Origin: Fistulifera solaris
Taxonomy: Eukaryota > Bacillariophyta > Bacillariophyceae > Naviculales > Stauroneidaceae
DNA: 64,000 bases
NCBI GenBank assembly: GCA_030295235.1
Contig: AP026125.1
Coordinates: forward strand, 1,922,001-1,986,000
Reading direction: 5' to 3'
The translations under genes were made by a program, and so were the position numbers. The notes beneath the pieces were generated by a model. It saw only the letters and a program-made list of their open reading frames with translations, made no database searches and was not told the origin of the DNA. Positions 4,749-10,543 of this stretch are shown here, in pieces. Position 1 is the first letter of the stretch; each line of letters starts with the position of its first letter.

Positions 4749-7329
4749 TTAGAGATCATTCATCGCCACAGAGAGACGCCATGCCCCGCGATTCTTGTCC
4801 CAATACTCCGCATCCTTGGGCTTTCGACCTTTGGGTCGCAAGTAGAACCCAGTCGAAGGATCCTGTTTGAGGGTCGCATTTGGTTTCATCCAACAATCTT
4901 CCAATTGTGGCTCTGATCGAGAATTGCTGGAGAGCACTTCAAAAGGATGCCGAACAGGGTTCTTATCTTTGCGAGACAAGGGAAATGCTGGATCAGGGCT
5001 ACATTCGATGTCAATTTGCTGAGTGTTCTTTTCATCAAGTACCTCGACGTCAAAACTGTCAAAGGTGCTCTGGGTATCATCCAGAAGGATCGGATTAGAT
5101 GGGCTGCTCCCCTGAGAACAGCCGCCTTCCTCTCGTACTAGAGCATCGCTGCCTTTTTCGACTTTGATAGCGAAACTATTCACCTCGTTTTCTTTCTGCA
5201 CCTTTTCGAGCTTTTCGCGTAGGCTCTGGAGCTCGGCATCTTTCTTAGAGACCTCTTCCTCATATTTGGCAGTGATAACGGCAATTTGCTCTTCTTGATC
5301 CTTTCGCATTCGCTGCATTTCCTCTTCGCATTCTTCCAGCTGCTCAGTCAGCTCCGCAATCTTTGCTCTCCTCGCGACGGATGGAGCTTCCGAGCACTAG
5401 CCACTGCGCCAGATGAGACCAACTGCTCCATCTGCAACTTCAACTTTTCGATAATATCATCGTACTGTTGGCTCATAGCCCGCATCTGACTCTCCATCTC
5501 TTCGGCAACTTCATCGCGAACATCCGCTTCAACGGACTCCATTTGATCACGAAGCTGATCCACATCTGCTTGAAGTTCATCATTCTGGGTTTTCAACATC
5601 TGGTTTTCAACTTCAAGAACCGACACTTTCATCCTCAAAGAGTTGATCTCTTTTTGATCGGTCGAGCTTGATCCACGTGGCGCAATCTTTTCATCCCCTT
5701 CAACCACCTCGGTGCGAATTTTCTTGTTATTGACCGGATACTTGAAAACGTCTGATGGTTTAGCATCGTGGTCATCGCTGTTTTCCTTTCGCTTTCGCGA
5801 GCCATTGAACCGGTGCGGAGAGAGCTTTTTGATCGCATTGACAATTTTCTGGGAAAACGTGGGTTTCCCGGATACCATTCTGTGACCGTTGTTGTCATAT
5901 TCCACACTCACAGATGGGGCCGCCTTCTCTTTTGGAATGGAGCTCGTATCGATATTTCGCGCAACACTCGAGTAAGAAAGAACATGTTGAGTCTCATCAA
6001 AGTCAGATGCTGCAGGGTTGACGTTGATGACCATGCTTGTCCGATTTGCATAGGGTCCCATCCAATGAGCGGCGAACAAGCGAGTCAACTTGCTGTCTCT
6101 CCACGGAATTACAGCGTTTTTCTTGTCACCAGCCGAGCTTCTTAGACCCTCCAAGCATTGATTGAGCGTCATAAGAGACATATTAATGTTTGCAGCTTCT
6201 TGTTGTCGTGCTCCACCGGTGCGCTTACTTCGTTCGCTCCCAGCCAAGTCGACGATCCACAGATTTGACTTGATGTTTGAGCTTTTATTCAACACCTGAA
6301 TCTGGCAGATAGCGTGCGAACGACTGCTCTCCTTATTGATGGAGTTCGTAGCACATCGACGATTTGTTTTTGCTTGAGAGATAAAGATAAGCCGTCCGCC
6401 AGCGACGGTACTCGATGAAGAGAAATAGAATGCAATGACTTCTTCATGTGGGCCGCAGTTCTACCCGTCATGGTTTCCACGGATAGTAAATCGAATATCT
6501 TTTCATTGTAAATCTCAAAGTATGACATGTGCAATGAAAGATTTTGTGTACCGTTGTTGTGGCACAACTCGAAGAGATGCTTCAGCGCGCGAGGGAGCAG
6601 CCCCCATGATTGATTGACACTGTCCGACGTAAGAGTTTTGTCTGGTCCGGTAACGGTGTAGGTCTTTCCTGCATTGGTAATGCCATAACAGAATACGAGA
6701 CCAGACTCTCCAGCTAGCACACCGTTGATGTACGGCGAGACGGTTCGCTCATAGACGACCTCTTGACTGGCATCTTGAGGAAAGACTTCAGCGAATTCGA
6801 ACTCCTTCAAAATACTACTACCTCCAGCTCGAGCGACTTTGAAGGAATGCGAGCTGGCTGGAGCATGAGTACGGATCTTTTGTACACTTCTCCCATCTAC
6901 GGCTGTCTTTGGCAAGATCTCAATCGTATTATCGGAGTTGGCTGTCGGGCGGAGACGTAGATAAACGCTGAATTGCTTTGGCTCCGGCTCGCTTTCACTT
7001 TCATAGGAATCAAACGAAAGTGTGTTGGCTGGCTTCATTTCGAATTCGTGGATCTTCTCCGCTACCGATTGCCGGAACGACCCGGGTTTGCTCTGTCCAG
7101 GCTTTGTGAGTTGATCAAATGTTTCTCCGAGATTCTTCTTGAGTTGTATCGTGTCATTCAATGTCGTGTTTAGATCGCGTTCGGACTCAAGGGAAACATT
7201 AGCGTCTGGAAAATAGCTAACGTCCTGATCAATTTGACTGTTGTTCAAATGGTTCTCGTCGTAGTTGATCATGTCGGGCACATCATTCTCTTTATCCGAG
7301 AAAAAGCTACTTTCGTTAATTCTTTCCAT
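4749..7329 (-). CDS. kinesin motor protein, kinesin-6 (KIF20)-like
   Basis: Microtubule motor with an N-terminal extension (about 120 residues), motor domain, long coiled coil and C-terminal tail. The nucleotide-binding motifs are all visible: P-loop GITNAGKT (residues about 216-223), switch I N-x-x-SSRSH near 6320-6345, and switch II LWIVDLAGSER near 6230-6262. A P-loop with Asn-Ala/Ser before GKT is typical of the KIF20 branch of kinesin-6; I treat the subfamily as probable. The start at the ATG 7329 precedes a KEN sequence (residues 12-14), a possible APC/C degron. Breaks: one A is missing from the run at 6367-6371 (between LKQK and TNRRCATNS, just before switch I), and a second frame change lies near 5365-5385 inside the coiled coil. 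The coiled coil extends on both sides of that break and ends near 5160. Confidence 0.87.
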
Positions 7330-7977
7330 TCTATCCAAGATCGTAGGTGTATTGCACGGAATCAAATACAGAAGTTACAAGAAAGCTACGTAGTATGTTG
7401 ATTTGCGTTGCACTTCTCATTCATTGTTCTTTCGGTACATCTGTGATGAAAGTGAAGCCTGAGAATTGTTTAGCCGTCGGCCGGCTTTCATCGATTATTT
7501 TAGCTCAAGCAACTGTTAAACGGAAATTAAGCTCTATATAAACTTTCACGTTTCGTGCATAATCAAATTATTTAGACTGTATAGTAAAATGTCGGAGACT
7601 TTATATTCCGACTTAAATCATAATTTCAGTCCCGGAAGTTATGTACCAGCATTTTTATTGATTGTTTAGGATTCGTAATGGGCTTCCGTCCCTCTTCTAG
7701 CTGTTTGAGGATGTCGTAGATAGCCATTCAGTTCAAGAAAATGTAATTACCGGCTAGAGACCATGGCTAATCTCGATGACATCGAGACTTAAAAACGGTG
7801 AATTTATGTCGACACTGACATCTAGAAAGAAGGAGCTCTAGGTTCGTCCTTACTACATTTTCAGATAGCAAGCAGAGATTATATCTTGTCATAAGCATGA
7901 GTGGGAATGGATGCAATGAATACGACCAGATAAACAGTAACTTTTCATATTAAAGATGTACGAACAACTCCAATTCA
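7330..7977. other. intergenic region
   Basis: AT-rich, no supportable gene. A TATA-like string (ctctatataaac) lies near 7532-7543, about 200 bp upstream of the kinesin start. That spacing is long for a core promoter, so I do not call it one. Confidence 0.35.
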
Positions 7978-9609
7978 TTACCAATCACCCGAGTCTCCAC
8001 TTGCCGCCATGCCTTGTTTTGATGCTTCTCGCGCGGCGCGCTCTTCCAGTAACGCTTCGTGCCGTGATCTACGTGCTCTATTCAACTTATATTTTGAAGC
8101 CATTTCCACCAGCGCTTGCTCCGCCAAATGTTCACTCTCCATTTCAACAAAGGCGTACGTAGAGTTTGTCGGCACAATAACATCAACGACGCCGCGGTCC
8201 CCTCCATATTTTGCGAATGCGCGTTCGAGTTCGGCGCGACGATGATCGATATCGGATTGAGTAAAGATTTTCGATAGACCGCTGACGAAGAGTTTTCGTG
8301 GGTGAACCGAATTGAATTGATTGACGCCTGCAATGCCTGAAACGTCTGCTTTTGCCATAAGGCTTTTGTGACCCCACCAAACCTAACAAACATTCGCTTA
8401 GCCGAAGAAAGAACAGCCGCAGCAATACAAATATCCGATCTTACCTTGTAAACTGTCCAAGATTCGGGACTGCCATAGTCGTCCGTGGAAGGGAACTGTA
8501 ACACCAAATGTGACGCCGAGCTGAGATCTTGACGGTGTTCTAAACGCAAGCAATGTTTGCCTTCAAGAAATACGTCAAAACCATCGCCATGGATTTGAAT
8601 GATCAGAGTACACGAGGTCTGTCCGAATAAGATAGGTACTTGAGACAAAGGGATTGCAAGTGCTTGTCCCCAGATACCTTCATTCTTGTCATTTACTATC
8701 AATTGGCCACCTCGCTCGAACTGACGCGGATTAAAGTGAAACAATACACTTTCAAACGAATTATGATCGGGTACAGCCAAGTTCAAGCTGAAGCGTTTCG
8801 AATCTGATGGTGCCATAAATTTGATGGCCAGAGTATTGTTGTAGCCCGGCTTTCCTAACTGGTCAACATCAAAATTTTCCAACTCAATACAGAACGCTCC
8901 ATCGTTGGGAGCGAAAACACCTTCTGGCGGCGACCACTTCATTTCATTGTTATCAATAGGAAAAGAGTTTTGCCACGAGAAGGTGTAAGCTCCAGACTTT
9001 TGGAGAAATCGTGTGGTGGCGTTGACGCAGCAGTGATGTTCGCAATAAGTGATGTAGTATTCTCTTCCACATCGTCTGCTCTTTTTCGCTTGATGAGTGC
9101 CGGAGAATCATCCACGTGTTCTTCGTTGTCTGCAGCCCGCAAGTGTTGAGCAATCAGCTCTTCTCGCTTGGCGTCGTTTACCGTCTGCGCTCTCTTTGCT
9201 TCTTCAACTTCTTCGCGCAAAGCTGCGAGTTTTGCCTCGCGACGTTCATGCAAAGTTGTTTCATCACCAGAGTCTTCTTCGTCATCCTCAAGTTCTTCTT
9301 CTTCGTCGTCGTCGTCATCGAGATCCTCGTTATCGGAAAGATCATCTGCTGCTATTTTCCTGGCGACACGCTTTCTCTTACGCGCCGGCTTCGCCATTTT
9401 CTGCTGAAACTCCGCATCTTTCGCAGCTAATTTCTCCATGGCGGCTTCCGTTTTCAAACGCTGTGCGGTTTTTTCCAGTTGACGAACATGATCATACATT
9501 TCGAGCAGCATGTCTTCCTCTTCGGTCGTTTTAAAGTCGTCCGGAACAGGAAGAATGCCGTAGGTCTTTGCTGTTGCGGCGTCGGATTCCGCCAGTTACT
9601 AGCACTCAT
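7978..9609 (-). CDS. galectin-RRM fusion protein with acidic N-terminus
   Basis: Three parts in one gene. The N-terminal third (9609 to about 8970) is a charged helical region with basic KRKR clusters and a long Asp/Glu run, suggesting a nuclear protein. A galectin fold follows (about 8940-8445): HFNPR (residues 69-73 counted from MKWSPP), VN (83-84), Trp91 in IWG and the late strand FDVFLEG...LEHR. Of the eight sugar-contacting positions of animal galectins the His, Asn, Arg, Val, Asn and Trp are present; the Glu/Arg pair after WG is not (WGQALAI). A 62-nt intron (8383-8444; AAG/GTAAG to TTAG/G) then joins the galectin in frame to an RRM with RNP2 KLFVSGL and RNP1-like TYAFVEME, ending at 7978. 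Breaks: one T missing at the A4/T4 run 8961-8964, and one indel near 9562-9573. I know no named family with this order. Confidence 0.78.
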
Positions 9610-9749: not shown

Positions 9750-10543
9750 TTACCATTCGAGTCAAATGAAAATGCGAGTACTGTAAATGTATAGGACACG
9801 TTCACTATATATTAAAGTGTCAGTTTACGACAGAAGTCGTATACCGTATCAAAATCGACCGATTTTTTCCTCCTCTGCACCACGATGACATTGCGGTAAA
9901 ATCATGATCTTTCGACGATGCACATTGGAGGTTTTTTCTGGTGGAATGCTCCACTATCTCATCTTTCATACAAATAGAAGCATCTTGACGGATTGACGGA
10001 AGAGTGGAGCATTCGGTCGGGAAAGTGCGGAGATTTATTATCAACTGAGGAGGGCAGAAAAGATTCCTTCCGACACTACGATTTCAGCCTTCGACGCCAA
10101 AATGAAGGTTTTCCTTAGTAATTCTTTCATCGATAGGTATCTTTTATAGTCGTTCACATTAACTTTAAGTTCTGTTATGAGAGATGTACTTCACAAATTT
10201 TTCTCTCCTTAAATGAATGTCGAAGCTCATGTTTTGCGCGACCAAACAGAACTCCAAAAACTCGGCACACTCTTGTTTTCCTTGTGAACTTTTCGCCATT
10301 CTACCAACCTGCTCTCGCTTGTTTGAATGGTGTAAAACTTCACAAGCAGCTCCGCAAACGCCTCCAGTGTGCATCGTCGAAAGATCATGATTTTACCGCA
10401 ATGTCATCGTGGTGCAGAGGAGGAAAAAATCGGTGGATTTTGATACGGTATACGACTTCTGTCGTAAACTAACACTTTAATATATAGTGAACGTGTCCTA
10501 TACATTTTACAGTACTCGCATTTTCATTTGACTCGAATGGTAA
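9750..10543. repeat. foldback element: 182-bp inverted repeats around a 429-bp loop
   Basis: The left arm 9750-9931 and right arm 10361-10543 are reverse complements with only a few mismatches (outer ends ttaccattcgagtc and gactcgaatggtaa; inner ends near cgatgcacattggagg and cctccagtgtgcatcg). The loop 9932-10360 has its own smaller inverted pair, gaatgctccact (about 9944) and agtggagcattc (about 10001). No protein longer than the arm-derived shadow frames is encoded, and I see no target-site duplication. It may be a non-autonomous foldback/MITE element or a hairpin-RNA locus. The following stretch 10544-11127 holds no gene I can support. Confidence 0.85.

Follow-up and report, generated by a model that had tools for sequence, protein, structure and literature searches.

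Evidence for one spliced gene joining a galectin-type domain and a probable RRM in the diatom Fistulifera solaris

A locus of the diatom Fistulifera solaris in which a galectin-type domain is followed, across a short intron, by an RRM-like exon raises the questions of whether both parts belong to one gene and what a protein of this composition might do. A review (PMC11239732) links animal galectin-1 and galectin-3 to spliceosome assembly, describes galectin-3 as lacking an RRM and cites contacts of galectin-1 with spliceosomal components that are independent of carbohydrate binding; the first-pass annotation of the locus had placed these animal galectins in splicing complexes as separate proteins. 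In another study (PMC4952364), nuclear galectin-3 is found with hnRNPA2B1 in a lactose-dependent manner and is counted among the components of the early splicing machinery, whereas PMC11648975 concludes that galectin-3 makes no direct contact with RNA and that the signal stemmed from hnRNPA2B1, through either indirect contact or antibody cross-reaction. The role of galectins in RNA processing is thus disputed in animals, with the former work speaking for splicing and the latter reporting no direct contact with RNA.

Fistulifera solaris is described as an allodiploid diatom in two papers (PMC5935921 and PMC13276009), the second of which also presents a method for editing the two homoeologs of a gene simultaneously in this species. 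Analysed here is a stretch of 64,000 nucleotides, referred to as the window (G+C content 0.446-0.462, in keeping with published chromosome values of roughly 44-46%), together with the assembly it comes from (51.7 Mb in 61 contigs), which was searched for related sequences. Published oligonucleotides agree with this host: a primer of 25 bases for one apt homoeolog has a single match in the assembly and a guide target common to both apt homoeologs has two, while the reversed patterns used as controls have none. The features of the locus and its surroundings are collected in Table 1.

Table 1. Features of the galectin-RRM locus and its neighbourhood, in window coordinates
Feature	Position	Strand	Remarks
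Whole gene	9609-7978	minus	stop at 7978 and candidate ATG at 9609 in the sequence
Candidate start ATG 9609 (MSASNWRNPTPQ) and frame change just before 9568	9568-9609	minus	both copies
Acidic/basic N-terminal region (KPARKRKRVARK, D/E run)	8960-9568	minus	a separate open frame
Frame break of the window copy	8957-8960	minus	shorter by one base than in C6
5' exon, galectin-bearing part	8445-8942	minus	166 codons, counted from ATG (ACG in C6)
Gal-bind_lectin match (PF00337, profile 15-119 of 132)	8505-8834	minus	36.0 bits, E 5.6e-9, cut-off 22.1
HFNPR galectin motif	8724-8738	minus	aligns with HFNPR of galectin-8
WGQALA (galectin-8: WGREE, then I)	8655-8672	minus	first Glu replaced by Ala, without Arg
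Intron, 62 nt, GT-AG (GTAAG...TTAG), phase 0	8383-8444	minus	frame kept into VWWGHKSL...RRM
3' exon (VWWGHKSL..., probable RRM, C-terminal charged helix, stop)	7978-8382	minus	134 aa, from translation; ends ...SGDSGDW
RNP2-like KLFVSGL	8275-8295	minus	read in translation; outside the Pfam match
RRM_1 match (PF00076, profile 12-67 of 70)	8077-8238	minus	24.4 bits, E 2.7e-5, cut-off 20.7
RNP1-like STYAFVEM	8140-8163	minus	read in translation; inside the Pfam match; both central aromatics kept
Kinesin motor gene (PF00225), next downstream	6289-7365	minus	E 2.1e-31
Inverted-repeat element, 794 bp	9750-10543		arms about 187 nt long, complementary at 97-100%
Open frame, 170 aa	11128-11640	plus	matching C6 stretch starts with a similar frame

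Gene structure at two homoeologous loci

Searching the assembly with PF00337 gave at least two matches, one in the window (C5) and one on C6, that is, one per homoeologous locus, and the RRM exon had no matches in the same assembly at E<=0.01 beyond these two copies. The C6 locus is 92% identical to the window over 1,700 aligned bases. Its downstream flank contains short matching pieces, including 38 bases where the kinesin-like gene begins, and the flank on the other side matches the window over 2 kb at 87%. Because of this identity and of the matching flanks on both sides, the two are regarded as homoeologous loci.

Most exon differences between the two copies lie at third codon positions. 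These account for 33 of the 42 differences within the 498 galectin-bearing bases of the 5' exon (dN 0.018, dS 0.412, dN/dS 0.044) and for 23 of the 27 within the 402 coding bases of the RRM exon (dN 0.016, dS 0.287 and, by division, dN/dS 0.056). When wrong frames were used as a control, dN exceeded dS in all five that were computed (frames 1 and 2 of the N-terminal region, frame 1 of the galectin part and frames 1 and 2 of the RRM exon). These values indicate that both the galectin and the RRM exons are under purifying selection, with dN/dS of about 0.04-0.06.

The first-pass annotation had joined the two domains in a single gene through an intron of 62 nt, and this structure holds: the intron is bounded by GT and AG, interrupts no codon and leaves the frame intact, and the C6 copy shares it, with an intron of 63 nt, likewise GT-AG and phase 0, between exons in the same order. 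The aligned introns are identical in 54 of 64 columns, with length changes. Were the intron retained, translation of the C6 copy would stop in frame exactly at the acceptor, and that of the window copy would enter a wrong frame. The alternative of two neighbouring genes without fusion can point to an ATG in the RRM exon, which lies in frame eight codons into the exon, but the eight codons that precede it differ between the copies at one third position only, which disfavours a separate RRM gene starting there, as the conservation of the VWWGHKSL codons would have no explanation if translation began at this ATG. Splice signals, frame and codon conservation, moreover, all span the junction in both copies, and the two-gene reading, which we consider very improbable, is rejected on these grounds. 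The view that the galectin-type domain and the RRM exon form one spliced gene in both subgenomes is well supported, given two homoeologous copies, an intron that keeps the frame, purifying selection on both sides of it and the in-frame stop met by the unspliced C6 copy.

Upstream of the gene, the inverted-repeat element begins about 140 bp from ATG 9609. It gave no match longer than 16 nt at the C6 loci (L002 and L009), 15 matches to its arm occur across the assembly, including the window's own two, and it resembles a transposon of the foldback or MITE type, situated in the promoter region of a single homoeolog. The open frame of 170 aa beyond it has no match in Pfam at E<=0.01.

The galectin-type domain and the RRM exon

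Pfam was scanned with the exons of the window and of C6, each run separately, against the curated cut-offs of 22.1 bits for PF00337 and 20.7 bits for PF00076. An HMM search with these two models had been proposed in the first-pass annotation as a check, and in both copies both models score above their cut-offs when the exons are scanned alone, with 35.8 bits for the galectin exon and 21.0 bits for the RRM exon of C6 next to the window values of Table 1. At E<=1 no family other than Gal-bind_lectin matched the galectin exon of the window and none other than RRM_1 its RRM exon.

For the galectin exon, a phmmer search of the PDB sequences found 97 distinct sequences at E<=1, the closest chain being galectin-8 (E 1.6e-9), and the best 60 of these 97 are all named galectins, two of them carrying the name 'lectin, galactose binding, soluble 9'. 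In the alignment of the window copy with galectin-8, HFNPR, the Asn of IVND (the VN of the motif) and the Trp of WG are all matched, and the translations of both copies contain HFNPR, this Asn and this Trp. The galectin domain with HFNPR, VN and WG, as initially read from the sequence, is thereby confirmed. The exon had no match in NCBIfam. An AlphaFold2 model built from this one sequence has a mean pLDDT of 45.6, and with it Foldseek returned no match at E<=0.001 and 177 at E<=10; among the best 50 of the 177, galectins are frequent, at E above 1 and ranked behind unrelated folds.

The full signature of the galectin sugar site consists of His, Asn, Arg, Asn, Trp, Glu and Arg, in which the Glu that follows WG is a conserved residue of the galactose site. 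The diatom domain departs from it in the two positions that had been called lost at the outset: in both copies the Glu of galectin-8 after WG corresponds to Ala, and no Arg follows WG in the alignment of the window copy. The second difference says little by itself, since Arg is not strictly required: aligned with the window galectin, the N-terminal domain of galectin-8 carries Ile two residues behind its Glu. The loss of Glu is the more telling argument against a sugar site. With Ala for Glu and without Arg, the protein is classed here as a galectin-domain protein and not as a beta-galactoside-binding galectin. Alternatively, the galectin part might be a working lectin that recognises a glycan, of galactose type or another, carried by a partner in the nucleus or cytosol, with the RRM tying it to RNA. 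HFNPR and the Asn and Trp of the signature are retained in both copies, the missing Arg has its parallel in galectin-8, and the association of animal galectin-3 with hnRNPA2B1 is lactose-dependent in PMC4952364, which leaves room for a sugar-type contact as opposed to a pure protein dock. The replacement of Glu by Ala in both homoeologs speaks against a working lectin, which we regard as unlikely.

The domain encoded by the 3' exon is probably an RRM, an assignment held with moderate confidence. Its first description had claimed RNP1 and RNP2 motifs, and the exon does exceed the cut-off of PF00076, while KLFVSGL and STYAFVEM, which we take to be RNP2-like and RNP1-like, can be read in the translation with their aromatic residues kept; STYAFVEM departs from the RNP1 consensus at its first positions, the first of which is not basic. 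The score depends on the context in which the exon is scanned, being 21.4 bits in the spliced galectin-RRM sequence of the window and 16.8 bits, below the cut-off, in the 511-residue protein of C6. Against the PDB, the exon has 27 matches at E<=1, the best of them at E 0.034, and a profile made from the two sequences has 18 matches, the best at E 0.02, so that no chain was found at E<=0.01 with either query. In NCBIfam there was a single match, to NF058537, at 15.9 bits and far below the cut-off of 100 of that family. A model of the exon from one sequence (mean pLDDT 50.9) consists of helices only, among which the C-terminal helix is the sole part modelled with confidence. The weak PDB matches include SFPQ and NONO, proteins that dimerise. 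Such observations, namely the weak scores in the full C6 protein and in the PDB, the non-basic first position of the RNP1-like motif, the confidently modelled C-terminal helix and the presence of SFPQ and NONO among the matches, would suit a fold of RRM type that has diverged and dimerises by a long helix, in a protein that serves as a scaffold and does not bind RNA. With the exon as the only query, however, both copies score above the Pfam cut-off, and the aromatic positions of the RNP motifs are retained; we consider the scaffold distinctly improbable and keep to the assignment as a probable RRM.

The charged N-terminal region and the window copy

A nuclear-looking acidic/basic N-terminus had been described as part of the same protein. 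The region itself is present, but in the window copy, from about 8960 to 9568, it is out of frame with the galectin-type domain. The C6 copy is longer by a single base close to the equivalent of 8959 and reads through continuously from the N-terminal region into the galectin (...STPPHDFSKNLELTPSRGKTLFPFDNNETKWSPPEGVF...). An intron ahead of the galectin, joining the N-terminus to it in the window copy, was considered as well and dropped, as C6 is continuous there owing to its one extra base. The break near 8959 may be recent or may reflect an assembly error. Over the 603 window bases that could be compared, the N-terminal region has a dN of 0.028 against a dS of 0.241 (dN/dS 0.116) and has thus been under constraint.

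The window copy might accordingly be a decaying homoeolog or suffer from an assembly error, in which case the full protein would be made from C6 alone. The single base missing near 8959, which puts the N-terminus out of frame, fits this possibility, as does the 794-bp inverted-repeat element that precedes ATG 9609 by about 140 bp and has no match longer than 16 nt at the C6 loci. On the other hand, neither the galectin exon nor the RRM exon of the window copy contains a stop or a frame break, both show the third-position bias, the N-terminal region is also constrained at the above dN/dS, and the C6 gene would be unaffected either way. Decay or misassembly of the window copy is, in our estimation, quite possible, and it can be compatible with the explanation preferred below.

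The very beginning of the gene poses a separate question that concerns both copies. In the frame of ATG 9609, all five differences between the window and C6 within the first 36 nt fall at third positions, whereas the charged region from about 9568 is in a different frame from these codons in both copies. The frame change could be due to a tiny intron, to an upstream reading frame or to a frameshift. If an intron of 35 nt (GTGC...CAG, read by eye) followed closely on ATG 9609, the frame would be repaired in the window and in C6 alike, but such an intron would be very short and would leave the five third-position differences unexplained. The full C6 protein matched three more Pfam models at E 0.63-0.93, mainly in the charged region and all far below the cut-off, and these matches are taken as an effect of composition.

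Proposed function, distribution and comparison with known systems

The charged N-terminus with KPARKRKRVARK, the damaged sugar site and the RRM together suggest an RNA-binding protein of the nucleus that carries a docking module. Such a protein would comprise, in one chain, a long charged N-terminal region, a galectin-type domain and an RRM followed by a charged C-terminal helix. Its basic clusters would bring it to the nucleus, its RRM would bind RNA, and its galectin sandwich, devoid of the conserved Glu of the sugar site, would mainly dock a protein partner in an RNA-processing complex, which would make the protein a covalent version of the indirect link between galectins and RNPs reported for animals. 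The basic clusters and the acidic run fit a nuclear protein with a protein-binding galectin; the RRM score is modest and counts against this explanation, which as a whole we deem somewhat probable. The animal analogy for direct contact with RNA is weak, and, if PMC11648975 is followed, a galectin alone would not be an RNA binder, which suggests a shortcoming that a fused RRM would remedy.

Judged from its sequence, the galectin-RRM protein is a new combination of two known families, and no galectin-RRM protein was described among the matches listed in the open-licence literature searched; the architecture may already stand unremarked in annotated protein databases of diatoms. The galectin exon gave 33 pattern matches in bacterial and archaeal genome contigs and four in viral contigs, none of which was confirmed in either set. 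In PMC5795050, one 'galactose lectin' (PF00337) is listed in each of eight of ten stramenopile genomes, including those of Thalassiosira pseudonana and Ectocarpus, and none in Hyphochytrium catenoides and Albugo laibachii; the methods given there describe a search of the H. catenoides proteome, the counts for the other genomes are taken as printed, and RRMs are outside their scope. The ricin-like galactose-binding lectins of Saprolegnia (PMC3681718) probably belong to another family, and PMC3129679 mentions galectin solely among its references. The single PF00337 gene of these stramenopiles resembles the situation in F. solaris, with one per homoeologous locus, in a comparison by counts alone. 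It is tempting, if rather doubtful, to suppose a single-copy nuclear galectin-RRM protein throughout the stramenopiles, whose galectin fold would serve RNA processing and not sugar binding; were this so, a link between galectins and splicing over which animal work disagrees would here be embodied in a single covalent protein passed on by vertical inheritance. A probable RNA-binding domain and a galectin fold would be physically linked in this diatom, whereas animal cells reportedly keep the two in separate proteins, and with both in one chain, kept by selection in both subgenomes, a single gene pair would offer a clean test of the dispute.

Among known systems, hnRNP U-type proteins combine an acidic region, a SPRY jelly roll and an RNA-binding tail, and the diatom protein, with its charged N-terminus, beta-sandwich and RNA-binding C-terminus, would resemble them in layout only. 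A SPRY domain in place of the galectin was considered and rejected: the diatom domain matches Gal-bind_lectin, and no SPRY model matched at E<=1. With RRM proteins the gene shares an RRM_1 match above the cut-off in both copies, the exon being scanned alone; it differs from them in a long loop after RNP2, a weak RNP1 and the galectin domain ahead. Animal galectins and the diatom domain have in common the PF00337 match over most of the profile (positions 15-119 of 132) and the retention of HFNPR, Asn and WG, whereas the exchange of Glu for Ala, the attached RRM and, in C6, the charged N-terminus set the diatom protein apart. The nearest functional parallel would be offered by galectin-3 and galectin-1 in spliceosome assembly, where a galectin fold is likewise tied to RNA-processing complexes, a function that in the diatom is only inferred; unlike the animal link, which runs through separate partner proteins, that of the diatom would be provided by an RRM in the same chain.
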